Shown here in pieces: positions 1 through 64,000 of a stretch of DNA of 64,000 nt. The number at the start of each line of letters is the position of its first letter. Position 1 is the first letter of the stretch. The position numbers and the translations under genes are program-made. Source of the DNA: Pontibacter chinhatensis (GTDB lineage Bacteria; Bacteroidota; Bacteroidia; Cytophagales; Hymenobacteraceae); contig NZ_FOOT01000002.1 in NCBI RefSeq assembly GCF_900113285.1, positions 806,001 to 870,000 of the forward strand. Reading direction: 5' to 3'. The notes beneath the pieces are model-generated. The model was not told the DNA's origin. It ran no database searches and saw only the letters and a list, made by a program, of their open reading frames with translations.

Positions 1-1
1 T

Positions 2-490
2 GACGAAAGGGAGTCTCCGCTGGAGAGACTGGAGCATGCCTTGACCAAGCCTGTGAACTTCCTGATCATGCCTATTTTTGCCTTGGCCAACACCAATATC
101 GCATTTGAGGCGAGCATGCTGGATGGCCTAACCAACACGCTGGGCATGGGTATCATCTTTGGCCTTTTAGTAGGCAAGCCCATCGGCATTGTCTTCTTCT
201 CATGGCTATCAGTAAAGCTGGGGATTAGCTCGCTGCCTGCAGGCACCAAATGGTTACAGTTCGTAGGCTTAGGCTTATTGGCAGGCATTGGCTTTACCAT
301 GTCTATCTTTATCGCCCTGCTTTCTTTCAGCGACCCTGACTTTCAAACGCAGGCCAAGTTTGCTATTCTCGTAGCATCCGTTGTTGCCGGTTTATCAGGA
401 TACCTGTTCCTGAACAGGATGGGGGCAAAGAACGAACTTACGGAAGTGCCCATCACCCGCGAAGAGCCAACACCGCGAGAAGTGTCTTAA
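2..490 (+). CDS. nhaA: Na+/H+ antiporter NhaA, C-terminal part (5' end cut by window edge)
   Basis: The reading frame is open from base 2, so the gene begins outside the window. About 162 residues remain of a family usually near 400-450. The sequence begins DERESPLERLEHAL and continues VNFLIMPIFALANT, matching the stretch of NhaA that leads into the last membrane helices. Further hydrophobic segments follow (IIFGLLVGKPIGIVFFSWL, GLLAGIGFTMSIFIALL, FAILVASVVAGLSGYLFL). The KPIGI and GIGFTMSIFI motifs are typical of NhaA. The family exchanges Na+ for H+ across the inner membrane for pH and sodium homeostasis; the ion-binding aspartates lie upstream of this fragment. A strong hairpin at 541-579 follows the stop codon. 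Confidence 0.93.
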   Translation, partial: DERESPLERLEHALTKPVNFLIMPIFALANTNIAFEASMLDGLTNTLGMGIIFGLLVGKPIGIVFFSWLSVKLGISSLPAGTKWLQFVGLGLLAGIGFTMSIFIALLSFSDPDFQTQAKFAILVASVVAGLSGYLFLNRMGAKNELTEVPITREEPTPREVS

Positions 491-540
491 TAGTGTTTCC
501 TCAGGATAATAGATCATCTTAAACTAGATAACCAGAAACG

Positions 541-579
541 AAAAAGGCCTTGCAAGTATAAAACTTGCAAGGCCTTTTT
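541..579. terminator. Bidirectional terminator between nhaA and ssrA
   Basis: A perfect 16-bp inverted repeat (arms 541-556 and 564-579, 7-nt loop TATAAAA) has an A-run on one side and a T-run on the other. It can end nhaA on the plus strand and ssrA on the minus strand. The loop region contains the heptamer AAGTATA. Confidence 0.9.
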
Positions 580-588
580 GATGATAAG

Positions 589-956
589 TGGAGATGCAGG
601 GATTCGAACCCTGGTCCAGACAAGGAAACCGTCGTGCCTTCTACATGCTTAGGTTTATTCGGATTGTCGGGAGCTTGCAAGTATAAACCAAACTTATGCG
701 CACTCCTTAGGTGCTTTAGTTTCGCCTGTGCACCACACCTTTACACAGACTAGTAAATCGGATCGAAGCCTCATATATGCAGGCAGATTCACGAAACCTG
801 CACGAGACTATGGCTAGTGCTTAATACCTAGATTAAGCAGCCATGGCGTAATTAGATTCGCCAGTTATTGTTCGAACGGATTTTTGACAGGTGGTACGTT
901 CATCACCCGACATGCTTACACGCAATTTGCTCAAGCTGTCAATTCCAGTCATCCCC
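589..956 (-). ncRNA. ssrA: Transfer-messenger RNA (tmRNA)
   Basis: Read on the minus strand, the RNA starts GGGGAUGACUGG at 956 and ends with a T-arm (GGUUCGAAUCC, plus-strand complement near 597-613) and CAUCUCCA at 589. The first seven bases pair with the last stem strand as an acceptor stem (one G-U pair), leaving A as discriminator. The next bases are CUU, so the terminal CCA is not encoded and must be added. The internal tag frame encodes GESNYAMAA followed by UAA, a Bacteroidota-type tag. tmRNA with SmpB rescues stalled ribosomes and marks the unfinished protein for proteolysis. Length is about 368 nt, normal for a one-piece tmRNA. Short open frames overlapping this region are not genes. 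Confidence 0.96.
833..862 (-). other. tmRNA tag-peptide reading frame (GESNYAMAA-stop)
   Basis: On the minus strand from 862 the codons are GGC GAA TCT AAT TAC GCC ATG GCT GCT TAA. The nine-residue tag ends in the hydrophobic AMAA tail recognised by ClpXP-type proteases. GGC is inferred to be the resume codon. Confidence 0.9.
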
Positions 957-1100
957 ATTAAGTTAAAGAACGAATTCTTGGCATTTATACTTCAAGAAGT
1001 ATGCCACAAACATAACGATTATTTATGGCTTTTTGGCTGCTGCCAGCGAATAATTAACGCAAAGCAGCAGCCAAAAAGTTTCAGGTTTATACTTTTATAC

Positions 1101-2237
1101 TTACCTCGATGCCGTGGTTGTGGCAGCTGGTAGCACAGGTGCCTGGTACAGGTCTGTGAGCGAGTTGGTATACTTGTAGCGGTCCAGTTTATACTTGCGC
1201 TGGAACACTTCCGGCACCTTGGCTCCCACCGGCACGAGCATCAGCGAGCTTTTGCCATCGATGGTTTCCCGCTCAAAGGCCACACCCTCGCGGTTATCAA
1301 ACTTCACGTCGAAGTAGTACAGGTAAGGGTACACCCAGTTCACGTACTGCATTTTGCTTGTTCCGGAGAGGCTTCTGATTTCCAGCTTGGCATAATCTTT
1401 CGCAATGGCCTGCTGAAACTCCACGGCGTTCAGGGGCACGTTGTTGAGCACCGGCATCACGTCGAACTGGCCGTCCAGCATCACCCACTTCTGCAAATCC
1501 GGCAGGTATACTTCCAGCAGCACGTGGCCGGCGCCGAACTCCACTGTTTCCACGTCCTTCATCTTCAGGCCCATGGTGCGGGCGGGCAAACCGATGGCGT
1601 TTAGGCAGGCGGTGGTGACGATGCCATACTCTACGCAGCGGAACTGTTTGCCTTCTTTCACCTCAGCCAGTATGGTCAGCGCATCCGGGTTGCTGGGCTC
1701 GTTCATGCCGTTGTGCTGCCACTGCTTGTGCACCCAGTTTACCATGCGCAGCGCTTTCTCGGTATCGTTGGCAGCGCCTGCCACGATAGCATCCAGGTTA
1801 TACTTGGTGCGCAGCTCCTGCAAGTAGGCGTTGTTGCGGTTTTGCTCATACACGAACGTATAAGCCGGCACGGGCTGCTTCTTGTTAAACTCCACCGCCT
1901 CAAAGCCAAAACCCTGCAGCTCTGTTAAGGCATAAGCGGTGTCGTTCAGGTTCACGTAAAAGCGGTACGATTTACCGGCCTGTACTTTAAAGCTGATGGA
2001 GTCGGTGTTGGTGTAGAAAGTAACGTCCTCTTTGCCTTTGTGCACCGCCACTTTCAGCACGTCTGGCGAAATCTGGGGCATGATGTTCCAGTTCCCTTTA
2101 ATCAGCTCTTTGCCCACTCTGTAGTCCGCTACGGCGGCGGTTGCCTTTACCACGGGCAGCCCCATATGGATTTTCTGTGCGAAGGATGGCGCCAGTAGTA
2201 CCAGCATCAGGAGCAGAAATGTGAATGACTTTTTCAT
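1101..2237 (-). CDS. Secreted transglutaminase-like domain protein
   Basis: 378 residues with an N-terminal signal peptide (KKSFTFLLLMLVLLAPSFAQ). The middle carries the transglutaminase/papain-like triad in the right order: Cys in FRCVEYGIVTTACLNAIGLPA, His in GAGHVLLEVYL and Asp in KWVMLDGQFDV. The RCVEYG...GLPAR signature is typical of bacterial transglutaminase-like (transglut_core) proteins, which may act as proteases or acyl-transfer enzymes; the substrate here cannot be told. The protein is probably periplasmic. The start ATG at 2237 is preceded by a 619-nt spacer holding a sigma-54-like box at 2361-2380 and two activator-like sites at 2431-2481. The same cassette precedes the ABC permease gene, so the two are likely co-regulated by the response regulator at 5520. 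Confidence 0.82.
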   Translation of the reverse strand: MKKSFTFLLLMLVLLAPSFAQKIHMGLPVVKATAAVADYRVGKELIKGNWNIMPQISPDVLKVAVHKGKEDVTFYTNTDSISFKVQAGKSYRFYVNLNDTAYALTELQGFGFEAVEFNKKQPVPAYTFVYEQNRNNAYLQELRTKYNLDAIVAGAANDTEKALRMVNWVHKQWQHNGMNEPSNPDALTILAEVKEGKQFRCVEYGIVTTACLNAIGLPARTMGLKMKDVETVEFGAGHVLLEVYLPDLQKWVMLDGQFDVMPVLNNVPLNAVEFQQAIAKDYAKLEIRSLSGTSKMQYVNWVYPYLYYFDVKFDNREGVAFERETIDGKSSLMLVPVGAKVPEVFQRKYKLDRYKYTNSLTDLYQAPVLPAATTTASR

Positions 2238-2360
2238 AGTTTTATTTTGTACTTAGTGATTGGTGAATGATAGTTTTATCTTGTGTATGTATGGTTCAGA
2301 CGCTGTTTCCGGCTGCGGCTTTATACTTTGTCATTTAACTGCCCGCCGGCATAAACACTA

Positions 2361-2380
2361 TAAGAAATTTGGATGCCAAA
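2361..2380 (-). promoter_or_regulatory. Sigma-54-like promoter box upstream of the transglutaminase-like gene
   Basis: On the minus strand the box reads TTTGGCATCCAAATTTCTTA. It fits the spacing of TGGCACG-N4-TTGCW, except that the -12 element is TTTCT instead of TTGCT. The box upstream of the permease gene (5294-5313) is identical at 17 of 20 positions. The predicted transcription start is near 2352, giving a leader of about 115 nt. Confidence 0.55.
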
Positions 2381-2430
2381 AATGTAAAACACTGATTTTA
2401 AGCAACCTAACCACGCATCCAATTTTATAC

Positions 2431-2481
2431 TGTTCGCTTCCGATACACCCCTGCCTGTTACACCTGTGCGCTTCCGTAACA
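2431..2481. promoter_or_regulatory. Two 17-bp TGT..ACA sites, candidate enhancer (activator) sites
   Basis: TGTTCGCTTCCGATACA (2431-2447) and TGTGCGCTTCCGTAACA (2465-2481) are 34 bp apart, start to start. The nearer one lies 50 bp upstream of the sigma-54-like box. The same pair with the same 34-bp phasing stands upstream of the permease gene at 5365-5415. Consensus TGTnCGCTTyCGnnACA. This layout suits an NtrC-type activator bound as two dimers. Confidence 0.55.
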
Positions 2482-2534
2482 CATCCATACTTTCCTGAAA
2501 TCATTTTTTAAATGCCCTTGAGGCTGCCTTTAAA

Positions 2535-2582
2535 AGAAGCGCCCGCCCTGCAGGCTGGGTAGCTTGCAGGGCGGGCGCTTCT
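2535..2582. repeat. 18-bp perfect GC-rich inverted repeat
   Basis: Arms AGAAGCGCCCGCCCTGCA (2535-2552) and its exact reverse complement (2565-2582) are separated by 12 nt. No T-run follows on either side, so it is not a classical terminator. It lies in the 619-nt spacer 2238-2856 between two minus-strand genes. Confidence 0.8.
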
Positions 2583-2684
2583 TCGGGTTAAAATCTATAC
2601 TTTATACTTTGATTTATACTTTGGTGAAGGAGTAAAGCTCCCCAGGTAGGCAGGATGGGTTCATCTTACTCACTATGCCTTTAA

Positions 2685-2772
2685 ACTATTTGTCATCCTG
2701 AAAGGATCTTGGTGGAAGGGAGGTTAAGCCTCTGCGACTTGCTACCAAGATCCTTTCAGGATGACAAATAGT
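2685..2772. repeat. 29-bp perfect inverted repeat, REP/MITE-like
   Basis: The left arm 2685-2713 contains TTTGTCATCCTGAAAGGATC. The right arm 2744-2772 is its exact reverse complement, with a 30-nt spacer. Each arm also contains an internal small palindrome (CCTGAAAGG / CCTTTCAGG). Motifs of the GTCATCCTGAAAGGATCTTG kind are familiar to me as dispersed intergenic repeats in Bacteroidota (from memory). No coding sequence is present. It may also end transcription of the permease gene at 2857. Confidence 0.75.
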
Positions 2773-2856
2773 GAGGTTCAAACGACCCTGCTTCAAGAAA
2801 GGGGGTGGAGTGGGTTGTTCGGAACTTAGGTTTTATACTTCCATCTATACTTTACC

Positions 2857-5214: not shown

Positions 5215-5293
5215 AGTTTTAGGCTTTGTGGCGGTATAAACGTATGGCTGCGATATTTTTTCAGGGCAATTGCTACGAGGTACAGCAAAGTGC

Positions 5294-5313
5294 TAAGAAA
5301 TTAAAATGCCAAA
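5294..5313 (-). promoter_or_regulatory. Sigma-54-like promoter box upstream of the ABC permease
   Basis: On the minus strand: TTTGGCATTTTAATTTCTTA. It matches TGGCA-type -24 and TTTCT at -12 with canonical spacing, and is nearly the same as the box at 2361-2380. The predicted start of transcription is near 5285, about 70 nt before the ATG at 5214. Confidence 0.55.
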
Positions 5314-5364
5314 GTATAAAAACGTTAATAATCAACCATTTACACAACACAAAGTATAACAAAG

Positions 5365-5415
5365 TGTACGCTTTCGATACACCTTTGCCTGCTACACCTG
5401 TGCGCTTCCGCTACA
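5365..5415. promoter_or_regulatory. Two 17-bp TGT..ACA sites, candidate enhancer sites
   Basis: TGTACGCTTTCGATACA (5365-5381) and TGTGCGCTTCCGCTACA (5399-5415) are 34 bp apart and 51 bp upstream of the -24 element of the box at 5294-5313. The first site sits inside the longer dyad GTGTA-N9-TACAC. The surrounding 50 bp match the region at 2432-2481 at 43 of 50 positions. The sites lie in the 305-nt divergent spacer 5215-5519, so they could also affect the regulator gene at 5520. Confidence 0.55.
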
Positions 5416-5519
5416 AGTATAAACATAGCCATACGTGCCTGAAAAGTCCCATCTCCGCCTCCTTTATTATTATTTGAATAGAATACTTATATTCGATCCT
5501 TCAATAAGCGAGAATACCT

Positions 5520-8430: not shown

Positions 8431-10056
<1,626 letters not shown>

Positions 10057-42606: not shown

Positions 42607-43080
42607 AGTACTTAAAATTTTGGTTACTACCACCGCCTACTGGCAGTGGCCGGAACCTTATACGCAGGATAGTGCAATTTGGGTTACACTCCCCCACATC
42701 ATAACCTTAGCTTCCGTCCGCAAAAACATACTTTCACCTGATTCTCAACAAGTACAAAGTATAAATTTGTGCAATTCGCATTCCTTAAAAGTATAGCAAA
42801 TAGCGGCTATTATACTTTGGAATGGCAAACCCGAAAGAGCGAGAATCAAGGAGCAAACAAAGTATACTTCAGAGTATAAGAGGAAGTATAAATCAGAAAA
42901 TTCTACTTGCAGAATGAGGGAAATGCTGCGCGATCGCTCCGCTAGTCTCCCGTAAGCAGCAAAGTGTAATTGGTCAGTCAGCCGGAACTGTAGCCGAAAC
43001 CTGTGTAAAAAAGTATGGCCACAAGCTGCGTACTGCAACCTGTGGCCATACTTTTGATGCCTCTCTTCAGCCAGGGCTGC
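42607..43080. other. Spacer very dense in AAGTATA, with a hexosaminidase terminator
   Basis: 474 nt with no gene. Between about 42755 and 42895 there are six copies of AAGTATA/TATACTT in 140 nt, including AAGTATACTT near 42862. A hairpin at 43009-43055 ends the minus-strand gene. Confidence 0.55.
43009..43055 (-). terminator. Hairpin terminator after the GH20 gene
   Basis: AAAAGTATGGCCACA (43009-43023) and TGTGGCCATACTTTT (43041-43055), perfect 15-bp arms; T-run on the minus strand. Confidence 0.8.
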
Positions 43081-45654
43081 TTACATGGAGGTTTGGTTTT
43101 GGATGGTGATGGTTTGTCCGCCACGCCCTGCAGCGTTAAACACGCGCAGCTTCACGGCTCCGGTTGCCTCAACAGGCGCCGTATACTTCTGGCTAGTTGC
43201 TGTTGGCTCTGTGCCGTCTGTCGTGTAGCGGATGGTGAAGCCGGGGAACTGCACATTGGCCGCTACTTTTCCGTCTACCACCTTTGCACCCGCCGTCGGG
43301 ATTCGGTAGCCATACCCGCCTGCGTAGGCATCCAGCCGCGGCAGCTCTCGCTTGCCTACCACGTTGATAAACTCAGACCAGGCCTGGCTGTAGAGCTTCT
43401 CGCTTTTCGCCGCATCTTTTTCCTTGGCCCAGTTTGGGTCCTTTGACCAGGCACGCTCAGCCACACCCAGCAGCTTAGGCAGCAACTTATACTCGAAGGC
43501 CTCGGTGGTCAGGTTTGTCTCAGACCACAGCGGCGCTTCGATGCCCACAATATTCGACTTTCCTTTCTCGGTCAGCGGCTCTTTGCTCTTGATGATGGAG
43601 CGGTCCAGCGGGTTCCCCTTGTTATCCTCTTTCAGGTTGCGGAGGTAATCGTAAGGAATGAAGTAAAACGGCTTGTCGATGTCTACATAGCCACCCCAGT
43701 ACAGGCCCGGCTCGCCGTAGGAAGTGTTGTAGGCAAGGTCCAGGTAAAAGTGAGTCACGCCCGTCAGGATTACTTTATACCCGGCATTCGCCATGCGGTA
43801 GGCCAAGTCCTCGGCTCCTGAACCAGGGTCGTTTTTCCATACGTTTACATGGAAGTTCTCATTGGCGAACTGCTGGTTCGGCACCCAGTTCACTTTTCCG
43901 TTCATAACTTCCTTTCGCAGTCCTATTTCCTCCCAACCCGACAGGTACAGGCCGCGCTTCTTGAGCATCTGGTTCACCTTGCCGAAGTAGTAGTACCACA
44001 GGTCGTCTGTATTTTTCACCTCTGCGTTCTGGCTGATGAGGCGCTGCACGGATGGTGATTTCTCCCACACCCCTGACGGTACCTCATCCCCGCCAAAGTG
44101 TATCGTGTGCAGCGGGGCATCGGCCTCTTTATACATGGCCATAATCTCATCCACCACTGTTTCCAGGAAAGTATAGGTAGAAGGCAGCGACACGTCCATG
44201 ATGTTGTCGTTCCAGCCCTGCACCGAGCGGTACACCGACTTATCGTTCAGGTCGCGCAGCAGGTAGCGCTCTGCTTCCTCCTTTTTGCCCTCGTCCATCA
44301 ACTTCGTGTAGCGGGCATCCATAGCCTTAATGGCCGCCCTGGCGTGGCCCGGAGACTCTATTTCCGGGATTACCTCGATGTGGCGGTCGCGCGCATACTT
44401 CAGGATTTCAATAAAGTCCTCTCTGGTGTAAAAGCCCGTACCCGCTTTGTTAGCCGCATCTGGCCCGGAACCGTAGGAAGGCACAATGCTGCTGCCATCG
44501 GTGGTATGGGCACGCGTGCCGCCCACAGCGGTAAGCTCGGGCAACGGACGGATTTCCAGGCGCCAGCCCTCATCCTCGCTGAAGTGGAAGTGCAGCTTGT
44601 TCATCTTGTACAGGGCCATCACGTCCAGCACCTTCAGCACCTCCGCCTTCGGCTGGAAATTGCGGGCCATGTCCATCATAAAGCCTCTGTAGCCAAAGCG
44701 CGGCGCATCCTTCACCTCTACGCCTGGCACCTCTACCGTGGCCGCCTTGCCCGCGTAGGCCGTGGCCGGCAACAGCGTTTTCAGCGACTGCACGCCGTAG
44801 AAGGCGCCGGCAGCTGAGGAAGCGGTTATCTCAATTCGCTCCGGTGTTACACTCAGTGTATACTCTTCTGCTCCCATGCCAGGCTTCTTCCTAAGGAAAA
44901 TTGCCTTGCCAGTGGCATTGCTTTGTACAGCAGGCTGCTGCCCTGTGGCCGTAGCCAGTACCGCTGCCAGGTGCTCTGCTTCCTTTTTGAAGTCTGCGTC
45001 TGCTACCAGGGTTACCTTGGCGTCTACCACAAATGGCGCGCCTTTTTCCTGGTAAGAAACCGGCGTCGGGAAAACCTTGGTCAGTGCTGTCGCTGGCATA
45101 TCTTGTATCGCGGCGTTCGCCTCATAGGTCTTGGCTGCGAATTGTTGGGTGGCCTCATCAAAGTGGGTTCCCGGCTCAACTTTCAGCGAAACAGGGATAC
45201 CTTTTCCCGGCTCCGCATCATAAACGATGTAAAACCCAACGGGGAAGTTGGAAACATTCCGGACAGCGCGGCCCAGCACCTCTACCGTAGCCGACGCACC
45301 AGGCGCTATTTCCTTAAACTCCGGCCCCGGAGCCAGGTAGTGCAGGTCACCGTTAAAGTGCTTTACAATCGCCACCGTCGTGTCAGCCGACCTGACGGCA
45401 CCTCCGTTAAAATAGAGCTTCCACCCTTTGGCAGGAAGTGCCTCCGCCCCATTGTTGGTTATCGTTAAAACCGACCGGGACTGTGCCTTGCCCTCGTGGT
45501 AATTATCAGCCAATTCTAACTTCAGCTCCAGGCCCTGCGCTGCTGCACTCGCCTCGTTGGCGGACGATACGGCAGCGGTATCCGTGGAAACTTGGGAGCA
45601 GCTCATCAGCATGGCCTGGGCAAGCACCCACACCCCTATGGTTAGTTTTCTCAT
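43081..45654 (-). CDS. Beta-N-acetylhexosaminidase, GH20, lipoprotein
   Basis: 857 residues from ATG 45654; the frame extends to 45690 but the signal starts MRKLTIGVW. Lipoprotein signal ending AMLMSCSQ. Domain order: CHB_HEX-type carbohydrate-binding domain (about 50-165), GH20b domain (about 205-330), TIM-barrel catalytic domain (about 340-710) with the acid/base pair Asp523-Glu524 in HFGGDEVPSGVW, and a C-terminal chitobiase-like/CHB domain (IRYTTDGTEPTATSQKYTAPV). It removes terminal GlcNAc from chitin fragments or glycans, probably at the cell surface. No SusC/D genes adjacent, so it is not in an obvious PUL. Confidence 0.94.
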   Translation of the reverse strand: MRKLTIGVWVLAQAMLMSCSQVSTDTAAVSSANEASAAAQGLELKLELADNYHEGKAQSRSVLTITNNGAEALPAKGWKLYFNGGAVRSADTTVAIVKHFNGDLHYLAPGPEFKEIAPGASATVEVLGRAVRNVSNFPVGFYIVYDAEPGKGIPVSLKVEPGTHFDEATQQFAAKTYEANAAIQDMPATALTKVFPTPVSYQEKGAPFVVDAKVTLVADADFKKEAEHLAAVLATATGQQPAVQSNATGKAIFLRKKPGMGAEEYTLSVTPERIEITASSAAGAFYGVQSLKTLLPATAYAGKAATVEVPGVEVKDAPRFGYRGFMMDMARNFQPKAEVLKVLDVMALYKMNKLHFHFSEDEGWRLEIRPLPELTAVGGTRAHTTDGSSIVPSYGSGPDAANKAGTGFYTREDFIEILKYARDRHIEVIPEIESPGHARAAIKAMDARYTKLMDEGKKEEAERYLLRDLNDKSVYRSVQGWNDNIMDVSLPSTYTFLETVVDEIMAMYKEADAPLHTIHFGGDEVPSGVWEKSPSVQRLISQNAEVKNTDDLWYYYFGKVNQMLKKRGLYLSGWEEIGLRKEVMNGKVNWVPNQQFANENFHVNVWKNDPGSGAEDLAYRMANAGYKVILTGVTHFYLDLAYNTSYGEPGLYWGGYVDIDKPFYFIPYDYLRNLKEDNKGNPLDRSIIKSKEPLTEKGKSNIVGIEAPLWSETNLTTEAFEYKLLPKLLGVAERAWSKDPNWAKEKDAAKSEKLYSQAWSEFINVVGKRELPRLDAYAGGYGYRIPTAGAKVVDGKVAANVQFPGFTIRYTTDGTEPTATSQKYTAPVEATGAVKLRVFNAAGRGGQTITIQNQTSM

Positions 45655-45869
45655 GTTGTTTGTCTGTGACTTTCTGTATAAAGTGGACAATGCGTTACTT
45701 TCTCGCTATCAAGTTATAAATAATTCAGAGATATAATAAAATAGGGATGGATTGATTTAATAGCTCAGGGCAAAAAGTGTGGTTCCTGCGTTTGCGAATA
45801 CCATGCCTGCGCATGCCTAAGGCATAATACCTGCCGCCTGCTGATGCCGGAAAATCAAATAATATGCCT

Positions 45870-51378: not shown

Positions 51379-52725
51379 ATGGGACTTAAAATATTAACTG
51401 AGCATATCAACGTTCCCGGCATCGAAACGCTGGAAGTATACCGTAAGCACGGCGGCTACCGCTCGGTAGAGAAAGCCCTGAAAACGATGTCTCCGGATGA
51501 GGTGGTGGAAGAGGTAAAGACATCCGGCCTGCGTGGCCGTGGTGGCGCTGGCTTCCCGACGGGTATGAAATGGAGCTTCCTGGCCAAGCCGGAGGGTGTT
51601 CCGCGTTACCTGGTGTGCAACGCCGACGAGTCGGAGCCGGGCACTTTCAAGGACCGCTGGTTCATGGAGAAAAACCCGCATGCGCTGATTGAGGGCATGA
51701 TCACATCGAGCTACGCGCTCGGTGCCAACACCTCTTATATCTACATTCGTGGTGAGTTGTTGTTTGTGCTGCGCATACTGGAGAAGGCCATCGCAGAAGC
51801 GTATGCTGCTGGTTTGCTTGGCAAAAACATACTTGGCTCCGGCTATGACCTGGATCTGCACGTGGCCCCCGGTGGTGGTGCCTACATCTGCGGTGAAGAA
51901 ACCGCATTGCTGGAGTCGCTGGAAGGTAAGCGCGGCAACCCGCGTAACAAGCCTCCGTTCCCGGCGGTGAAAGGCCTTTTTGCCTGCCCTACCGTGGTAA
52001 ACAACGTGGAGACGATTTCTTCTGTGCCATGGATCGTGAACAACGGCGGCGCAGAGTATGCCAAGGTCGGTATTGGTCGAAGCACCGGTACCAAGCTTAT
52101 CTCAGCCAGCGGCAACATCAATAACCCAGGCGTTTACGAAATCGAGCTGGGCGTGCCGGTAGAGGAGTTCATCTACTCCGATGAGTACCTGGGCGGTATC
52201 TGGAAAGGAAAGCAGCTGAAGGCGGTAGTACCGGGCGGTTCTTCCGTGCCGATTCTGCCAGCCAACCTTATCCTTAAAACAGCAGCCGGCGAAGATCGCC
52301 TGATGACCTACGAGTCGCTAGCCGACGGTGGCTTTGTGAGCGGTTCGATGATGGGTTCGGGTGCCTTTATCGTGTTTGACGAGGACCAGTGCATTGTGCG
52401 TAACACGTGGAACTATGCCCGCTTCTACCACCACGAGTCGTGCGGCCAGTGCAGCCCGTGCCGTGAAGGTACAGGCTGGATGGAGAAGGTGCTGCACCGC
52501 ATCGAGTACGGCCACGGCCATCAGCAGGACATCGACCTGTTGGTAAGCGTAGCCAAGCAGATAGAGGGTAACACCATTTGCCCGCTGGGTGATGCGGCGG
52601 CATGGCCGGTAGCAGCTGCTATCCGTCACTTCCGCGACGAGTTTGAGTGGCACATCAAGCATCCGAAGGAAGCAACCGCTCCGGGTGCGGTGTACAGAGG
52701 CCAGCTTGACACGGTAACAGCTTAA
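51379..52725 (+). CDS. nuoF: NADH-quinone oxidoreductase subunit F (FMN/NADH site)
   Basis: 448 residues. NADH-binding GLRGRGGAGFPTGMKW, FMN region NADESEPGTFKDR, and the 4Fe-4S (N3) cysteines in ESCGQCSPCREGTGW. Entry point of electrons from NADH. Confidence 0.97.
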   Translation: MGLKILTEHINVPGIETLEVYRKHGGYRSVEKALKTMSPDEVVEEVKTSGLRGRGGAGFPTGMKWSFLAKPEGVPRYLVCNADESEPGTFKDRWFMEKNPHALIEGMITSSYALGANTSYIYIRGELLFVLRILEKAIAEAYAAGLLGKNILGSGYDLDLHVAPGGGAYICGEETALLESLEGKRGNPRNKPPFPAVKGLFACPTVVNNVETISSVPWIVNNGGAEYAKVGIGRSTGTKLISASGNINNPGVYEIELGVPVEEFIYSDEYLGGIWKGKQLKAVVPGGSSVPILPANLILKTAAGEDRLMTYESLADGGFVSGSMMGSGAFIVFDEDQCIVRNTWNYARFYHHESCGQCSPCREGTGWMEKVLHRIEYGHGHQQDIDLLVSVAKQIEGNTICPLGDAAAWPVAAAIRHFRDEFEWHIKHPKEATAPGAVYRGQLDTVTA

Positions 52726-55476: not shown

Positions 55477-55481
55477 CCATA

Positions 55482-55994
55482 ATGGACAGCCTTTTCTTTT
55501 TCCTTGCTTCACTAACGCTGCTGTGCGCCCTGATGGTAGTTCTTTCTAAGAACCCAGTGCATAGCGTACTGTTCCTGATCATTACATTCTTCACCATCTC
55601 CGGCCATTATGTGCTGCTGAACGCGCAGTTCCTGGCCGTGGTGAACATCATTGTATACGCGGGTGCCATCATGGTACTCTTCCTCTTCGTGATCATGTTC
55701 CTGAACATGAGTAAAGCGGGAGACAAGATTAAAACCTCCACCATCAGCAAGTTTGCAGGGGCCATAGCCGGCGGTATGATGTTCGTGGTACTGGTTGCCG
55801 CCCTGAAAGATGCGACCATCGCAGGCCTTAACCCGGAGACCTACAACTCGCAGGCGGGTATGGTGGAGAACCTGGGCTATGTGCTGTTCACTGAATACCT
55901 GCTGCCTTTTGAGCTTGCCTCTGTCTTGTTCCTGGTAGCCATGGTGGGTGCCGTAATGATTGGCAAAAAAGAGCAGGGCGAAAGCCATTTCTAG
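55482..55994 (+). CDS. nuoJ: NADH-quinone oxidoreductase subunit J
   Basis: 170 residues, five TM helices; VVNIIVYAGAIMVLFLFVIMFLNM is the conserved TM3 with its pi-bulge. Last gene of the first nuo block, followed by an 18-bp perfect terminator. Confidence 0.95.
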   Translation: MDSLFFFLASLTLLCALMVVLSKNPVHSVLFLIITFFTISGHYVLLNAQFLAVVNIIVYAGAIMVLFLFVIMFLNMSKAGDKIKTSTISKFAGAIAGGMMFVVLVAALKDATIAGLNPETYNSQAGMVENLGYVLFTEYLLPFELASVLFLVAMVGAVMIGKKEQGESHF

Positions 55995-56016
55995 ATCAAA
56001 GCTTCTTTACAAGTAT

Positions 56017-56061
56017 AAAAAGCAAAAGGCCGGAGTTCATACTTCCGGCCTTTTGCTTTTT
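56017..56061. terminator. Strong bidirectional terminator after nuoJ
   Basis: AAAAAGCAAAAGGCCGGA (56017-56034) and its exact reverse complement (56044-56061), 9-nt loop. It should end nuoA-J on the plus strand and the convergent lipoprotein gene at 56083 on the minus strand. Confidence 0.9.
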
Positions 56062-56082
56062 ATAGGTTGGCACTTTTATACG

Positions 56083-57132
56083 TTACAGCTGCCCCTGCGC
56101 AATCGACAAATCCAGCTCCAGTAATTCTGAGTGCCCTTTATCATCATCCGACACCACCACCACTTTATACTTTCCTTCCTCCCCCTTTCGCACCACCACC
56201 GACTCAGCTTTGCCCACGTAAGGGCCGCCATCCTCGTTCGTTAGCTGCACCACCGGCACCGCCAAAGGGTTCGCCTCATCGGAGGCATGCGGCAGCATCT
56301 TCAAGTCTATCCTACCCAGGAAACTACCGTGCACCGTGCCGTCGTCAATGGCGTTGGGGGTTTCCTCCACTGAGGCCGTAAAGAATAGTTCACCATCCAA
56401 GGCAAAGGCCCCGGAGAAACCTGCATGCAGCTCCCCTAACTGCGGCAGGCTGAAATAATAAACCGCAACCGCCGGGATACCACCACGGCCAAGTATAAAA
56501 TCCTCAAAAGCATCCGCCTCAAAACGGAAAAGCACATTTTGCCCTTTACTCAAGGTACGCTGCAACAGATAAGTATAGGCTTTGTCCATTGCCAAGCCCT
56601 CCAGGTTCAGTTGCTCGGTAGCCTCCAGCCGCAGTACCTGCCTTAGGAAAGTATAAAACCGCGACAGATTCAGTTCCTTCACCTCCATACCCTTGGTCAG
56701 ATTAACCAAATACCCTACCTCCCGATTCTTAGCGGACCCGGAGCCAAGCATGATCAGCATCTCGTTACGGCCATAGGTAAGCAGCGCCATACTTTCGAGG
56801 TCTGGCTTGAGATCTTTCGGAATACGGCCACCCTTTATACTTGTCGTGTCGAAGATGGGGTAGCGCTGTGTCAGTTCATACTTTTCGTTCAGCCGGTAAA
56901 GATACGGCGAGTCATCACCGAGTACAAAAAAAGCGCCTTGGGCATACTCCAGCCCCGAGGCAGAGGGCAGATCCTGATAAAACACCTGCCGGGTGGTGGT
57001 GGCAGATAGCTGTACTGGCTCAGGCAGATCTGTATGTCGGGCAGCAGTACTGCTGGTTGCAGGCGGTTCTGTTTTACAGGCCAGCAGGAGCAGCGGGGTC
57101 AACAGAAAGTATAAAAAATGGCATTTCCTCAT
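56083..57132 (-). CDS. Lipoprotein with beta-propeller-like character, inserted in the nuo locus
   Basis: 349 residues. Lipoprotein signal FLYFLLTPLLLLACKTE with Cys near residue 19. The remainder resembles a phytase-like/DUF6929-type propeller (QDLPSASGLEYAQGAFFVLGDDSPYLYRLNEKYELTQRYPIFDT, DLESMALL, LNLEGLAMD, GHSELLELDLS, given in order of appearance). Function unknown. It lies on the opposite strand between nuoJ and nuoK and shares the nuoJ terminator. Confidence 0.72.
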   Translation of the reverse strand: MRKCHFLYFLLTPLLLLACKTEPPATSSTAARHTDLPEPVQLSATTTRQVFYQDLPSASGLEYAQGAFFVLGDDSPYLYRLNEKYELTQRYPIFDTTSIKGGRIPKDLKPDLESMALLTYGRNEMLIMLGSGSAKNREVGYLVNLTKGMEVKELNLSRFYTFLRQVLRLEATEQLNLEGLAMDKAYTYLLQRTLSKGQNVLFRFEADAFEDFILGRGGIPAVAVYYFSLPQLGELHAGFSGAFALDGELFFTASVEETPNAIDDGTVHGSFLGRIDLKMLPHASDEANPLAVPVVQLTNEDGGPYVGKAESVVVRKGEEGKYKVVVVSDDDKGHSELLELDLSIAQGQL

Positions 57133-57312
57133 AAGTATAAACAGTAATTCCCATAGCTACGGAAACAGGTTCCAAAAGTATAAACCGGGTTTGTATCATC
57201 CTTTCACGGAAATATCAAAAGCCGGATTTGAGAACGCCTTAACTGTGCACGGAAGCCCGCTGCAGGGCAAGAAGAATAGGGAAATATGTTATGGTTTTTA
57301 CAAAAATGGGGA

Positions 57313-57320
57313 TAACTTTG
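57313..57320 (+). promoter_or_regulatory. TAnnTTTG promoter box for nuoK-N
   Basis: TAACTTTG, 54 nt upstream of ATG 57375, in the 242-nt divergent spacer 57133-57374. Needed because the first nuo block is terminated and an opposite gene intervenes. Confidence 0.5.
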
Positions 57321-57374
57321 CGACTTGATTTTTGGATCGTAATTTAAGAGTAATACGTTCTCAGTCACACAAAA

Positions 57375-57704
57375 ATGAACAACATTCCTGAGGTCATCAG
57401 AACCATCCCGTTAGACTACTACCTGTATTTCAGCGCGGCTCTTTTTGTAATCGGTGTTATCGGCGTACTGACGCGCCGCAACGCCATCGTGATTTTTATG
57501 TGTGTGGAGCTGATGCTGAACTCGGTGAATCTGCTGCTGACGGCCATCGCCTCTTACAGGGGCGACTCCAGTGCGCAGGTGTTCGTGTTCTTCATCATGG
57601 CTGTTGCAGCCGCCGAAGTAACCGTAGGTCTTGCCATTATCGTGATGACCTACCGTAACATCCGCTCTACCGATGTACAACTGCTGAACTACCTGAAGTG
57701 GTAA
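57375..57704 (+). CDS. nuoK: NADH-quinone oxidoreductase subunit K
   Basis: 109 residues, three TM helices. The conserved MCVELMLNSVNL glutamate and VAAAEVTVGLAIIVMTYRN are diagnostic. Membrane arm, proton channel. First gene of the second block. Confidence 0.95.
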   Translation: MNNIPEVIRTIPLDYYLYFSAALFVIGVIGVLTRRNAIVIFMCVELMLNSVNLLLTAIASYRGDSSAQVFVFFIMAVAAAEVTVGLAIIVMTYRNIRSTDVQLLNYLKW

Positions 57705-57746
57705 CAGCCCTAACCATACGCCGAATAGCTTAAACTTTTAACACAG

Positions 57747-59711: not shown

Positions 59712-59723
59712 GGTTCTTAGAAG

Positions 59724-61175
59724 ATGATTACAGCTCTATTACTTTTCTGGCCTGCCCTTGCCGCACTGCTGGTGTTGCTTATTAAAGGACAGGGTGCCAA
59801 GAAAGTGGCCTTTGTAGCAGCGCTTGTAGAATTTGCGTTGTCACTTTTCGCCCTCTCGGCCTTCGATACGCAGAGCGGTGCGTTACAGCATAAGCTAAGC
59901 CTGCCATGGATCGAAAGCGCAGGTATCAGCTTCAGCATAGGTATGGATGGCATTAGCCTGCTGATGGTACTCCTGACGACGTTCCTGGTGCCGCTGATCG
60001 TCCTTTCGTCTTACAAGCACGAGTATAAGAACCCGAACGTTTTCTACGCGCTTGTGCTGTTTATGCAGACGGGCCTGATTGGCGTGTTTGTGGCCATGGA
60101 TGCTTTCCTGTTCTACTTTATGTGGGAGGTGGCCCTTATTCCGATTTACTTTATCGCTGCCGTTTGGGGCGGTGCCAACAGAATCCGCGTTACGTTTAAG
60201 TTCTTTGTATACACCATCTTCGGTTCGCTGTTCATGCTGGCTGCTTTCGTATACTTGTACCTGCAAACGCCCGGCACGCACTCTTCCGATGTAAACGCTT
60301 TCTACCAGCTGACCCTGTCCGCCGAGTCGCAAAGCTGGATCTTCTGGTTCCTGTTTATCGCCTTTGCCATCAAGATGCCTGTGTTCCCGTTCCATACCTG
60401 GCAACCGGACACCTATACCGAGTCACCTGCACAGGCGACGATGCTGCTTTCCGGTATCATGCTGAAAATGGGTATTTATGGTGTACTGCGTTGGTTACTG
60501 CCCGTAGTGCCTTACGGTGTTAGCCAGTGGGATGAGCTGGTGCTGGTACTGGCCATCATCGGTATCGTGTATGCCTCTATCATCGCTATTCGCCAGCGTG
60601 ACCTGAAGCGCCTGGTGGCTTACTCCTCTATTGCGCACGTTGGCCTGATTGCCGCCGGTATCTTTACCCTGAACGAGCAGGGCCTGCAGGGTGGCGTAAT
60701 ACAAATGCTGAGCCACGGTATAAACGTAGTAGGCCTGTTCTTCATTATTGACATCATCTTCAGCCGCACCAATACCAGGGAAATCACCAGCCTAGGTGGT
60801 ATCACGCAGAACGCCAAAATGCTGTCCATCTTCTTTATGGTGCTGCTACTGGGTTCGGTGGGGCTACCGCTGACCAACGGCTTCGTGGGTGAATTTCTGC
60901 TGCTTTCCGGTGTGTTCCAGTACCAGGCGGGCTTTGGCGCCGTGGCCGGCCTAACGATTATACTTGCTGCCGTGTACATGCTGCGCATGTTCCAGGGCGT
61001 GATGTTCGGCACAAAGTCCGAAGCAACAGAGAACTTCACAGACCTTACCTTCAACGAGAAAGCCGTGCTGATTCCGCTGGTGGTGATGGTATTCTGGATT
61101 GGTTTGTTCCCTAACACGTTCCTGAGCATCTCGGAGCCTGCTGTGAACAACCTGCTGAGCATTATTAACCGCTAA
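59724..61175 (+). CDS. nuoM: NADH-quinone oxidoreductase subunit M
   Basis: 483 residues, antiporter-like subunit. Key residues in MWEVALIPIYFIAAVWGG, KMPVFPFHTWQPDTYTESPAQATMLLSG and LKRLVAYSSIAHVGLI. 12 bp after nuoL. Confidence 0.97.
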   Translation: MITALLLFWPALAALLVLLIKGQGAKKVAFVAALVEFALSLFALSAFDTQSGALQHKLSLPWIESAGISFSIGMDGISLLMVLLTTFLVPLIVLSSYKHEYKNPNVFYALVLFMQTGLIGVFVAMDAFLFYFMWEVALIPIYFIAAVWGGANRIRVTFKFFVYTIFGSLFMLAAFVYLYLQTPGTHSSDVNAFYQLTLSAESQSWIFWFLFIAFAIKMPVFPFHTWQPDTYTESPAQATMLLSGIMLKMGIYGVLRWLLPVVPYGVSQWDELVLVLAIIGIVYASIIAIRQRDLKRLVAYSSIAHVGLIAAGIFTLNEQGLQGGVIQMLSHGINVVGLFFIIDIIFSRTNTREITSLGGITQNAKMLSIFFMVLLLGSVGLPLTNGFVGEFLLLSGVFQYQAGFGAVAGLTIILAAVYMLRMFQGVMFGTKSEATENFTDLTFNEKAVLIPLVVMVFWIGLFPNTFLSISEPAVNNLLSIINR

Positions 61176-61215
61176 GCGGATAAAAGAATAAAGAGTTTTA
61201 GAGAATTACGACGAC

Positions 61216-62604
61216 ATGACCTCGATCATACTTCTATCTGTCTTTGGTATTGTGAACCTCTTTGCAGGCTTTGCAAAGAACAAACAGGTGCTTCTGCCGC
61301 TTGTGCTGGTTTTCCTGGCCATTGTTTTCGGTGTTAACCTGCTCGACTGGAACAATACCCAGACATACTTCAGCAACATGCTCACCATCGACAACTATGC
61401 GGTGGCGTTTACGGGCATCATGACACTGACCACCCTGCTGCTTCTGCCCTTCTCGCAGAAGTACATCTCCAACAACGACGCTAACCTGGGCGAATATTAC
61501 TCCCTGATGCTGTTCGCGCTGGTGGGAGCCGTGATGATGGTGGGCTATGAGAACCTGATCATGCTCTTTATCGGTGTGGAGATCATGTCGATTGCGATGT
61601 ACGTGCTGGCAGGTTCCGACAAGACGAGCCTTCGCTCTAACGAAGCAGCTCTGAAGTACTTCCTGATGGGCTCTTTCTTCACCGGTATCATGCTGTTTGG
61701 TATCGTGCTGATTTATGCCGCTACCGGAACCTTCAATATCACCGAGATTAGTGCCGCACAGGCCAGTGCTTTAAGCGAGGGCTTGCCGGACTCTATCTTT
61801 GTAATGGGCATCCTGATACTTGTTATCGGTATCTCCTTCAAGATTTCTGCAGCGCCCTTCCACTTCTGGGCTCCGGACGTGTATGAGGGCACACCTACTT
61901 TGTTTACGGCCTTCATGTCAACGGTGGTGAAAACTGCCGGTGTGGCTGCTTTTTACAAGCTGATGGTTGCAGCCTTTGCCGCCTCTTACGCAGCCTGGTT
62001 CCCTACGCTGGTGGCCATTACGGTGCTTACCCTGGTTATCGGTAACATTGGTGCCGTTATCCAGACGAGCTTTAAGCGCATGATGGCTTACTCGAGTATC
62101 TCGCATGCAGGTTACATGCTGATGGCTCTGATTGCCTTCAACGAGTCTTCTGATAAATCTATCCTGTTTTACTCTGCTGCTTACTCTTCTGCCAGCATCG
62201 CGGCGTTTGGCGTACTGAAGCTGGTGCAGGATCAACGCAGAAGCCATCTTTACGAAGCCTTCAACGGCCTAGGTAAAACAAACCCGCTGCTGGCCTTCAC
62301 CATGACCGTATCCATGCTGTCTTTAGGAGGTATCCCGCTTACAGCAGGTTTCTTCGGTAAGTTCTTTGTGTTCTCCGCAGTGCTGGCTAATCCGGACATG
62401 CTGTGGCTGGTGGTGCTGGCGGTGGTGCTGGCTGCTGTGGGTATTTACTACTACCTGCGCGTGGTAATTGCCATGTACATGCAGCCGGCTGCAAACTACG
62501 ATACCATCCGCGTAAATAGCTTTTCCAGTTTCACGCTGATTGTTCTGACAGTTCTGACTATCCTGCTGGGTATAGCTCCCGCGCTGGTGAGCGAGCTGCT
62601 CTAG
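61216..62604 (+). CDS. nuoN: NADH-quinone oxidoreductase subunit N
   Basis: 462 residues, third antiporter-like subunit: FIGVEIMSIAMYVLAG, KISAAPFHFWAPDVYEGTPTLFTAFMSTVVKTAG and FKRMMAYSSISHAGYMLM. Last gene of complex I; terminator 62626-62652. Confidence 0.97.
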   Translation: MTSIILLSVFGIVNLFAGFAKNKQVLLPLVLVFLAIVFGVNLLDWNNTQTYFSNMLTIDNYAVAFTGIMTLTTLLLLPFSQKYISNNDANLGEYYSLMLFALVGAVMMVGYENLIMLFIGVEIMSIAMYVLAGSDKTSLRSNEAALKYFLMGSFFTGIMLFGIVLIYAATGTFNITEISAAQASALSEGLPDSIFVMGILILVIGISFKISAAPFHFWAPDVYEGTPTLFTAFMSTVVKTAGVAAFYKLMVAAFAASYAAWFPTLVAITVLTLVIGNIGAVIQTSFKRMMAYSSISHAGYMLMALIAFNESSDKSILFYSAAYSSASIAAFGVLKLVQDQRRSHLYEAFNGLGKTNPLLAFTMTVSMLSLGGIPLTAGFFGKFFVFSAVLANPDMLWLVVLAVVLAAVGIYYYLRVVIAMYMQPAANYDTIRVNSFSSFTLIVLTVLTILLGIAPALVSELL

Positions 62605-62625
62605 GTAAGATTTATACTTTATGAG

Positions 62626-62652
62626 AAAGGCTGCCTAAAAAGGGCAGCCTTT
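62626..62652 (+). terminator. Hairpin terminator after nuoN
   Basis: AAAGGCTGCC and GGCAGCCTTT with a 7-nt loop, followed by TTGTTTTG. Confidence 0.85.
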
Positions 62653-62771
62653 TTGTTTTGGGGCAGAACAGTTTCCAAGTATAAATTGTGAAAATTGTTA
62701 CTTCAGTTCTCCTTTATACTTATATTGTTCCTGGTAAATCCTTCCTCATTGCCTGTATACCTCCACTGCTT

Positions 62772-63905
62772 ATGGTAAACCCTCTCCTGATTGGCCTGGC
62801 AAGTGGTGGCGCTTTCTTATTGTCCTTTCTGCTCTTTAACCACCCCAAAGCAAGTAATGTACGAGCCAACAGATGGCTGGGGCTTTTTGTGGCAACTCTG
62901 GCTGCCTCAGCACTTCATGTTTTCCTGAACAACCTGAACCTGCAGGCACGGTATCCACAGGTTCTGCTGCTGATAGAAGTAGCAGAGTTCCTGACAGCTC
63001 CGGCGCTTTACCTCAGTATACTTTTCTTCACCATCCTGGGCCGGAAGTATAAAAGAGTTGACCTGTGGCACTTTGCACCAGCTGCCACTATCCTGCTGTT
63101 TTTGATGAAGCCTCTTTTTACGGGCAAGAATGTAGAGTTTGCTGATGAGCTTGTAAAACAGGGCGTTTTAACCATGCTGATGCTGGCAAAGCCCGTACAG
63201 ACTGTAGCGTATCTGTTTCTCTCCTACCACCAGCTCGAGCGGCATCAAAGGGCTATCCGGCAGGTTGCTTCCGCTACAGAGGCAGTAGATCTACACTGGC
63301 TAAAGAAACTGCTAGCAGTATGGGGAGTTGTGCTGTTGGCTTGGCTGAACCTGGCCTTTTTCGGTTTTACTCCTCTGTTTAACTACACGCCCATTCTATA
63401 CTTGGCTGGTTTGTATTTTTTAACTCATTTCTCGATCCGACAGCAAGAGGTGTATGCCTTCTCGCCATCCGAGCTGAAAGAACTGGAGCCGGTTATCAGC
63501 AGCACCCACGTCGCAATGACGGAGAAGCAAAAAAGGCTATCAGACAGCCAGTTGGTCTTCCTGCAGGAGAAACTGGAGCAGTTGATGCGGCGTGAGAAGG
63601 TTTACTTGGACAATGAACTGAGTTTACCAACTCTGGCGCAGCGAGTAGGTGTCTCAGCTCACGAGCTGTCTTACCTCATCAATGCAGCATACTGCGAGAA
63701 CTTCTACTCGTTTGTAAACAGGCACCGGGTGGAGGAGGCAAAGCACCTGCTCGTGTCGCAGCAATATGAACAATTAAACATGGTAGGCATTGCGTACCAA
63801 GCTGGGTTTAACTCTAAAACCACTTTCAACACGGCGTTTAAAAAGTGGACGGGCCAATCGCCAAGCCAGTATCTGCAAGGCCTTAAAGAGCCAAAACAGG
63901 CGTAA
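62772..63905 (+). CDS. Membrane-anchored AraC-family regulator
   Basis: 377 residues from ATG 62772; a GTG at 62688 would add 28 residues. Seven or so hydrophobic segments in the first 240 residues (LLIGLASGGAFLLSFLLFNH, WLGLFVATLAASALHVFL, ALYLSILFFTILG, ILLFLMKPLF and others), then a C-terminal AraC-type domain with two helix-turn-helices: LSLPTLAQRVGVSAHELSYLIN and VGIAYQAGFNSKTTFNTAFKKWTGQSPSQYL. The family links a membrane sensor to DNA binding; signal and targets are unknown. Could regulate a gene starting past the window (ATG near 63993-63998). Confidence 0.88.
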   Translation: MVNPLLIGLASGGAFLLSFLLFNHPKASNVRANRWLGLFVATLAASALHVFLNNLNLQARYPQVLLLIEVAEFLTAPALYLSILFFTILGRKYKRVDLWHFAPAATILLFLMKPLFTGKNVEFADELVKQGVLTMLMLAKPVQTVAYLFLSYHQLERHQRAIRQVASATEAVDLHWLKKLLAVWGVVLLAWLNLAFFGFTPLFNYTPILYLAGLYFLTHFSIRQQEVYAFSPSELKELEPVISSTHVAMTEKQKRLSDSQLVFLQEKLEQLMRREKVYLDNELSLPTLAQRVGVSAHELSYLINAAYCENFYSFVNRHRVEEAKHLLVSQQYEQLNMVGIAYQAGFNSKTTFNTAFKKWTGQSPSQYLQGLKEPKQA

Positions 63906-64000
63906 AAGGCGTTCGCATGGGTGCAGCGGAACAGGTTTTTGCCTGTTGTTCATCAATTTCGAGCCAGATGTACAAACTCAAAAAGGCAAGATATGATGAC
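63906..64000 (+). other. Window end; possible start of a next gene
   Basis: 95 nt after the AraC-type gene. AAAAAGGCAAG precedes ATGATG at 63993-63998, a plausible ribosome site and start codon, but too little sequence remains to call a gene. Confidence 0.3.

Follow-up and report, generated by a model that had tools for sequence, protein, structure and literature searches.

Systems of DNA recognition and word abundance

To our knowledge, uptake sequences are known from two proteobacterial families, and the receptors known or proposed for them are type IV minor pilins. In the Neisseriaceae, uptake of the DNA uptake sequence (DUS) was shown and the type IV minor pilin ComP is its receptor. DUS exist as dialects with a constant CTG core, and Simonsiella muelleri harbors two dialects in a single genome (PMC3630211). 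For the USS of the Pasteurellaceae, a type IV minor pilin has been proposed as receptor (PMC12616744). A different type of abundant word is represented by HIP1 and the alternate HIPs, which are palindromic, GC-rich and accompanied by matching methyltransferases (PMC4390886).

Here we report on the word AAGTATAAA of Pontibacter chinhatensis, using a window (the whole 64,000-base stretch of DNA analyzed), its genome and those of its relatives. We propose that AAGTATAAA is the self-recognition word, or dialect, of this species and that it acts like a DNA uptake sequence, a reading to which we assign a probability of slightly below one half (about 0.48). Like the DUS, it is a short, non-palindromic word present in thousands of copies per genome at a matching density, with a constant core (TAT-R-notT in Pontibacter), dialects that follow phylogeny, genomes with two dialects and relatives without the word (PMC3630211). 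Unlike in the case of DUS, the 32 Pontibacter genomes tested have no pilus ATPase above the cut-off, uptake is what we infer, and close copies form mainly direct pairs. With the USS it shares the lack of palindromy and the presence of divergent dialects within a family (PMC12616744), but Pontibacter was found without the pilin machinery (no PF00437 match above the cut-off in 32 genomes). Like HIP1, the word is hyper-abundant in both coding and spacer DNA, has alternates in certain lineages and is missing from others that lost it, but, unlike the HIPs, it is AT-rich, and both AAGTATAAA and AGGTATAGC are non-palindromic (PMC4390886).

Abundance and placement of the word

The first-pass annotation had claimed a hyper-abundant heptamer, AAGTATA/TATACTT, in genes and spacers. 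This claim was borne out: the window contains 159 copies (80 on the + and 79 on the - strand), whereas 100 dinucleotide-preserving shuffles gave a mean of 4.65 (sd 2.24, largest 11). Three details had to be corrected: the first 10 kb hold 31 rather than about 40 copies; the density, said to stay similar to the end of the window, is patchy, with 0 to 13 copies per 2-kb bin (87 and 72 in the two halves); and the full word exceeds seven bases, since the 9-mer AAGTATAAA occurs 60 times, whereas base or dinucleotide composition would give 0.3-0.4 copies. AAGTATG is enriched as well, as a second form. The features of the window are as follows.

1..64000, both strands (counts): AAGTATA core, 159 copies, 60 of them AAGTATAAA; 61 further copies of AAGTATG
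554..560, + strand: AAGTATA copy adjoining the tmRNA gene
586-956, - strand: tmRNA gene (Rfam RF00023, 111.6 bits)
679..685, + strand: AAGTATA copy within the tmRNA gene
42757..42890: cluster of six copies spanning 134 bases
51434..51440, + strand: copy in nuoF (gene 51379-52725), common to several AAG-dialect species in the alignment
56011..57182: nine copies in the nuoJ-nuoK interval, within and around a DUF6929 gene (56083-57132, - strand)

The first three sites of the word in this list agree with earlier placements of six copies near 42755-42895, one copy in the tmRNA near 680 and one in the putative terminator loop at 551-560. The region 43084-45690 encodes, according to Pfam, a family 20 glycosyl hydrolase rather than ClpB.

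The high count might be sought in a compositional or assembly artefact. In favor of this, a Markov model of order 5, the check proposed initially, predicts 147 of the 159 copies. However, this null is ill-posed for AAGTATA because its 6-mers already consist of the motif, and it was rejected; orders 0-4, with 6.0, 4.9, 9.5, 29 and 77 copies predicted, fail to explain the count. A lack of enrichment in the rest of the genome and in relatives, which would have refuted the claim, was not observed: the 5.07-Mb genome contains 4,309 copies of AAGTATAAA versus 32 of the reversed word (2,097 and 2,212 versus 13 and 19 in the reversed-word controls), and large numbers were found in many relatives. Both within and outside coding DNA, the word is 18 to 22 times as frequent as the average 7-mer of equal A/T content, and independent assemblies are concordant within clades. 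An artefact is thus already refuted, and we give it practically no weight. Among 2-kb fragments, 97% contain at least one 7-mer and 72% a 9-mer.

Clear differences emerge between genes and spacers. In 164 kb of the genome, the 18% of non-coding DNA holds 203 of 397 word copies, corresponding to a density of 6.85 per kb in spacers versus 1.44 per kb in genes. The 194 intragenic copies occur in all frames, 98 in sense and 96 in antisense orientation. The codon-pair bias noted in the first-pass annotation applies as a general statement, with 69 ATA-CTT pairs against 4.5 expected and 42 AGT-ATA pairs against 2.1 expected in the same 164 kb. The share of copies in non-coding DNA and the TATA within the core would suit a promoter or another transcription signal. 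Nevertheless, spacers between convergent genes are the densest (9.34 copies per kb, 15 regions) and those between divergent genes the sparsest (4.66, 18 regions), tandem spacers carry 51 copies along the gene direction and 74 opposite to it, and about half of all copies are intragenic without a preferred sense. The promoter reading was therefore rejected on spacer type and copy direction, and any role of this kind is very improbable.

The same data bear on a further possibility, namely, that an abundant protein of the chromosome, such as a nucleoid organizer or a segregation or recombination factor, binds the word, possibly in a Chi-like manner, and that selection maintains it site by site. 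The higher density in spacers is in its favor, as is the scarcity of the word on second replicons, with 12 AAGTATAAA per 233.8 kb versus 64 per 160 kb of chromosome; these replicons are three second contigs of two-contig assemblies and are presumed plasmids. The same scarcity also supports the uptake reading, since DUS and USS are likewise scarce in mobile or foreign DNA. Copies that are 7-25 bp apart are mainly in the same direction (41 versus 7 in genome G000, 48 versus 8 in G085), as cooperative binding would favor; the prevalence of direct over inverted pairs is also an observation that counts against the uptake reading. Yet this bias is absent from the pooled AGG genomes (6 versus 14). 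Inverted pairs of the terminator type were considered and rejected, as direct pairs outnumber them among close copies in all but the pooled AGG genomes. KOPS and Chi are replication-polar signals. In contrast, the word has no polarity: over the 164 kb, which have a single GC-skew sign, 204 and 193 copies lie on the two strands, so that the strand or replication asymmetry suggested for examination, a skew of the Chi or KOPS type along one replichore, was not found there. In addition, selection of thousands of single sites would be costly, and 8 of 50 species lack the word. We consider binding sites of such a protein quite unlikely.

Dialects and site conservation across Pontibacter

Of the 50 Pontibacter genomes analyzed, 19 carry AAGTATAAA, 12 AGGTATAGC, 4 AACTATAGC and 1 ATATATAAA, whereas 4 are AAC and AAG mixed, 2 are weak and 8 are without the word. 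These dialects (AAG, AGG, AAC and ATA) emerged from an unsupervised k-mer ranking and differ in their 5' half only, the 3' half TAT-R-notT being constant in all four. They group by clade, separate assemblies within a clade agree on the word, and the mixed AAC/AAG genomes are neighbors of AAC and AAG genomes. The word, which is restricted to Pontibacter among the genomes searched, and its dialects are new; no account of this motif was found in the literature searched, in which subscription journals and preprints are poorly covered. All 8 motif-less genomes, but only 2 of 40 clear motif genomes, measure at least 5.2 Mb; these represent few lineages, and the large size hints at best that a filter against foreign DNA may have gone.

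Where sequences can be aligned, word copies arise by substitution. The first-pass annotation had suggested that site conservation be compared between relatives, and the outcome depends on the dialect. Between AAG species, retention of sites exceeds that of background 1.3- to 4.4-fold: from G000 to G083, 24 of 40 AAGTATAAA were kept versus 97 of 482 background 9-mers, and from G000 to G058, 44 of 70 AAGTATA were kept versus 346 of 1414. AAG sites are released in the AAC species G085 (10 of 34 kept versus 451 of 974 for background) and G099 (9 of 31 versus 452 of 962). No excess was seen for the sole AAC pair (G085 to G099, 19 kb aligned), in which AACTATA was kept at 42 of 71 sites versus 731 of 1223 for background and AACTATAGC at only 6 of 22, a result that speaks against the uptake reading.

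Such maintenance and release of sites would fit any recognition-dependent process, including one similar to that of HIPs. In this case, a methyltransferase with a non-palindromic target (of the type IIG or III kind) would make and keep the word, acting with mismatch repair guided by methylation or with biased mutation, and dialects would correspond to changes of the target. HIP1 and its alternates offer precedents in their similar abundance, lineage differences and matching methyltransferases (PMC4390886). The existence of alternates sustains part of the initial comparison with HIP1 and also counts against the uptake reading. However, this likeness is less apt because HIPs are palindromic, the Pontibacter word is not, and only its 5' half switches among dialects. 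We regard a HIP-like origin as unlikely, and our comparison suggests that the word resembles the DUS of Neisseriaceae more than HIP1.

Candidate uptake machinery and a proposed model of self-recognition

Matches to the pilus ATPase (PF00437) exceeded the cut-off in 13 of 14 control genomes but in none of 32 Pontibacter genomes, 28 of which had sub-threshold matches. Systems for which an uptake receptor is known or has been proposed differ in this respect, which is a point against the uptake reading. ComEC is present in all 32 genomes tested, motif-less ones included, and that of G089 has one internal stop; the retention of an intact ComEC by motif-less species is a further point of this kind. 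Because there is no pilus ATPase above the cut-off and ComEC occurs in every genome tested, the best reading is that the receptor is not a type IV pilin.

Several receptor candidates were rejected, and none of those examined proved to be the receptor, which counts against the uptake reading. HHH_3 proteins occur in 56 of 56 genomes; as components of transformation machinery, they and ComEC are nonetheless in line with uptake. DUF5689 (PF18942) does not follow the motif: it was detected in 22 of 55 genomes and is absent from the P. chinhatensis genome; for the protein of about 430 amino acids that was inspected, we take the neighboring gene to be SusD-like. The flavobacterial outer-membrane barrel, present in 15 of 50 Pontibacter genomes, is likewise out of step, as it occurs in 13 of 40 clear motif genomes and in the motif-less G111 but not in the P. 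chinhatensis genome. That DUF5689 and the barrel do not track the motif also weighs against the uptake reading. The comparison of the ComEC neighborhood in 15 genomes revealed nothing that tracks the motif. As for related machinery, the ComEC and HHH protein involved in transformation of Riemerella anatipestifer, another member of Bacteroidota, are both found in Pontibacter, whereas its barrel/DUF5689 pair is missing from the P. chinhatensis genome and does not keep pace with the motif (PMC8459023); the phrase "uptake sequence" is absent from that paper. No report on natural transformation of Pontibacter was found in the literature searched, a further point against the uptake reading.

We infer that recognition occurs at DNA uptake, that the dialects trace the evolution of a single receptor and that the sites are maintained by drive and not by selection acting on each of them. 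According to this model, a DNA receptor of the cell envelope would bind A-xx-TAT-R-notT in outside DNA, and DNA of the same species or of species with like spelling would be taken up preferentially via ComEC and then recombined. Molecular drive would accumulate and maintain the word genome-wide, in genes as well as in spacers, because word-carrying alleles would be imported more often than word-lacking ones. A shift in the receptor preference for the first three bases would cause old sites to drift away and new ones to build up, giving rise to dialects and mixed genomes, and the word would decay once recognition is lost. The wider proposal is slightly more doubtful than the role of AAGTATAAA itself: Pontibacter may possess a pilus-independent, sequence-specific recognition of self-DNA. 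Bacteroidota would then have an uptake-sequence system with four or more dialects, genomes between two dialects, repeated loss inside a single genus and a receptor class not yet described.

If true, a system of the same form in bacteria devoid of that pilus ATPase would imply a further origin of self-DNA recognition, based on a different receptor. With its four dialects, its mixed genomes and several lineages that lack the motif, this single genus represents a natural experiment on the birth, switch and death of a word, and this variety allows the receptor to be sought by association. If the word does not serve in uptake, a one-directional, genome-wide dialect word would add another class to those of HIPs and uptake sequences. 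In practical terms, use of the word may open the way to transforming Pontibacter.

Abundance and placement of the word

The window contains 159 copies of the heptamer AAGTATA/TATACTT, 80 on one strand and 79 on the other, compared with 4.65 ± 2.24 copies (maximum 11) in 100 dinucleotide-preserving shuffles. This bears out the hyper-abundance claimed in the first-pass annotation, although its estimate of about 40 copies in the first 10 kb was too high, the true count being 31. Its copies at 554 and 679 were located where it had put them, and its six-copy cluster near 42755-42895 spans 42757-42890. Markov models of orders 0, 1, 2, 3, 4, and 5 predict 6.0, 4.9, 9.5, 29, 77, and 147 copies, respectively; the agreement at order 5, which the first-pass annotation had named in advance as a refuting outcome, arises because that model is trained on the motif itself, and the lower orders fall short. 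Of the 21 single-base neighbors of the 7-mer, AAGTATG has 61 copies in the window and the other 20 have at most 19 each. The profile extends AAGTATA to the 9-mer AAGTATAAA, the next two places favoring A, and T is almost absent from the first place after AAGTATA (2/159).

The other refuting outcome it named, a lack of enrichment in the rest of the genome and its relatives, did not occur: there are thousands of copies genome-wide, and many Pontibacter genomes are enriched. The 5.07-Mb genome contains 2,097 + 2,212 copies of AAGTATAAA and 13 + 19 of the reversed word. Across the family (150 genomes, 50 from Pontibacter itself), only Pontibacter is enriched in AAGTATAAA, with a bimodal distribution within the genus. 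A set of 390 genomes from the order, 19 of them Pontibacter, gave a maximum outside the genus of 402 copies (in G340, whose control count is 512); on visual inspection, no outside genome with more than 100 copies surpasses 2.7 times its own control.

Placement was analyzed in 164 kb of this genome (G000), with 129 genes predicted by a purpose-written simple caller (82% coding). Spacers hold 203 of the 397 copies (6.85 per kb). The other 194 lie in genes (1.44 per kb), 98 of them in sense and 96 in antisense orientation, and occupy every frame. Enrichment over the mean of 448 7-mers of equal A/T content is about 22-fold in spacers and 18-fold in genes. Density is highest in convergent-gene spacers (9.34 per kb) and lowest in divergent-gene spacers (4.66); tandem spacers contain 51 copies along the gene direction and 74 against it. 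Amino acid identity at motif codons of nuo genes was 99/119 to motif-less Pontibacter (other codons, 18,092/21,092) and 36/48 to other genera (other codons, 6,847/9,230). The word is therefore placed where the protein permits. A DUF6929 gene (56083-57132, minus strand) lies reversed between nuoJ and nuoK, with nine motif copies in and around it. The second contigs of three two-contig assemblies, which are putative plasmids, contain 12 AAGTATAAA in 233.8 kb, and chromosome stretches of the same assemblies 64 in 160 kb.

Neighboring copies were compared in G000 (706001-870000) and in 80-kb stretches of G083, G085, G099, and G109. Copies starting 7-25 bp apart mostly share their direction (same:opposite, G000 41:7, G083 20:2, G109 16:7, G085 48:8, G099 27:5, and G058, AAG word, 7:0), although these loci are partly orthologous and hence not independent; pooled AGG genomes show the contrary (6:14). 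For copies 26-80 bp apart, the bias shrinks (G000 35:30, G109 19:14, G083 17:15, G099 21:18, G058 13:10) but remains in G085 (38:16) and AGG genomes (41:21). Spacings of 7-8 bp arise from self-overlap of the word. Simple duplication does not account for the pairs, since those inspected have dissimilar flanking sequence. The direct pairs may reflect cooperative or oligomeric binding. Such binding would also suit a chromosome protein with the word as its binding site, a less likely reading. The strands are balanced (204/193) over a stretch in which GC skew keeps one sign, which speaks against a polar chromosomal signal.

Dialects and their history in Pontibacter

With NuoF as the anchor, the nuo stretch orthologous to that of the window (about 16 kb, but about 9 kb in two cases) was obtained from 49 additional Pontibacter genomes and from 3 genomes outside the genus; Pfam matches confirmed the identity of NuoF and further nuo genes. 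K-mers were ranked by their excess over base composition, without specifying a pattern in advance. Pooling the 18 genomes with the fewest copies of AAGTATAAA yielded AGGTATAGC (47-fold), and in 9 intermediate genomes CAACTATAG (37-fold) and AACTATAGC (26-fold) stood out. Dialects, named by the first three bases of the word, were assigned by hand from the rankings: 19 AAG, 12 AGG, 4 AAC, 4 mixed AAC/AAG, 1 ATA (G002), 1 weak (G131, 87% complete), and 9 labeled "none". Whole-genome counts bear these labels out: those of AGGTATAGC are 1,365-2,768 in the 12 AGG genomes versus 57-297 in the remaining 38, and those of AACTATAGC are 2,017-2,985 in G119, G121, G085, and G099, 2,213 in G018, 891 in G033, 752 in G058, 318 in G043, and at most 201 in all others. 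The ATA dialect is known from sampled stretches of G002, with 28 ATATATAAA in 76 kb (98-fold) and 35 in 96 kb against 0 reversed. The 3' half is common to all four dialects and reads TAT, A/G (86-94%), non-T (T 3-5%).

Among the nine genomes labeled "none", G117, the sister of G002, has a weak GGTATAAAA (13 copies in 56 kb, 51-fold), perhaps a dialect decaying or being born; in the other eight, no comparable word emerged from samples of 36-56 kb per genome, where the leading words are mostly rich in CTG/CAG. Across 76 kb of G117 (L067, L068, L122, and the nuo stretch), 15 GGTATAAAA were seen, with a varied preceding base. In 21 kb of Hymenobacter sp. CRA2 (L136), GATTTCG occurs 22 times, about 12-fold over base composition, and is possibly another overrepresented word in a neighboring genus.

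On a FastTree phylogeny built from the nuo alignment (53 rows, 10,212 columns), where G033 has a long branch and unsure placement and base make-up is uneven across many rows, AGG genomes form a single fully supported group, and AAC and mixed genomes group together, adjoining AAG genomes. All labels together require 11 changes versus 30.4 when shuffled, and the nine "none" rows by themselves require four; for the group of G125, G028, and G127, the tree fits loss and original absence alike. Genomes of at least 5.2 Mb make up 8/8 of the motif-less versus 2/40 of the clear motif genomes (G109, G089), a hint only that the motif-less state goes with a large genome, because the lineages are few.

Site conservation and release

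At gap-free aligned sites, the word differs between species through substitutions (slice of 17 sites, several in gapped columns). Counting only sites with an aligned counterpart, AAGTATA of G000 was kept at 122/144 sites in G109 (93.4% identical; background of 7-mers with six A/T, 1435/2269), with 253/397 G000 sites excluded because the 80 kb fetched from G109 covers part of the 164 kb. In G083 (83.5%) it was kept at 66/113 (background, 442/1699), with AAGTATAAA at 24/40 (9-mers with eight A/T, 97/482), and in the mixed genome G058 (78%) at 44/70 (346/1414). Old-dialect AAG sites are let go in the AAC species: AAGTATA of G058 was kept at 10/34 in G085 (background, 451/974) and 9/31 in G099 (452/962), only 2 sites in each having turned to AACTATA in place, and AACTATA of G058 was kept at 20/36 and 26/35, respectively. 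The claim of excess conservation is based on AAG species; between the AAC species G085 and G099 (19 kb aligned), AACTATA was kept at 42/71 versus 731/1223, with no excess, and AACTATAGC at 6/22, not above background.

Candidate uptake machinery and comparison with known words

We infer that the word may work like a DNA uptake sequence (DUS), i.e., at uptake, with a probability just short of one half (0.48), lowered slightly because the AAC pair lacks excess conservation. ComEC (PF03772) was identified in 32/32 genomes, motif-less ones included. Only in G089 is comEC split by a stop, into 422 + 194 amino acids (L130, G089:C1:2761217-2781216); this genome also ranks last among the 23 AAG-rich genomes in word density, at 231 per Mb, a suggestive coincidence in one case. 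HHH_3 was found in 56/56 genomes, and among the matches listed, many genomes have a protein of about 315 amino acids with two such domains. According to excerpts of PMC8459023, Riemerella anatipestifer transformation requires ComEC, DprA, ComF, RecA, and an HHH protein, as well as a DUF1343 protein, an outer-membrane barrel, and a DUF5689 surface protein. The barrel/DUF5689 pair was located in Riemerella columbina, a Flavobacterium, and a Chryseobacterium; barrel matches in Pontibacter were strong (E <1e-46) in 15/50 genomes and weaker (E >=2e-11) in the rest. Neither gene follows the motif across the Pontibacter searched, and both were rejected as word receptors.

The type IV pilus/T2SS ATPase (PF00437) was above the cut-off in 0/32 genomes, with sub-threshold matches in 28, as compared with 13/14 control genomes above it. 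This is a real difference from DUS, and the word is therefore said to work like a DUS and is not classed as one. The likening to HIP1 of cyanobacteria in the first-pass annotation holds for hyper-abundance in genes and spacers but is less apt in form, since HIPs, as excerpted from PMC4390886, are palindromic and methyltransferase-linked. DUS, as excerpted from PMC3630211, are the better match in abundance, form, fixed-core dialects, mixed genomes, and maintenance followed by release.
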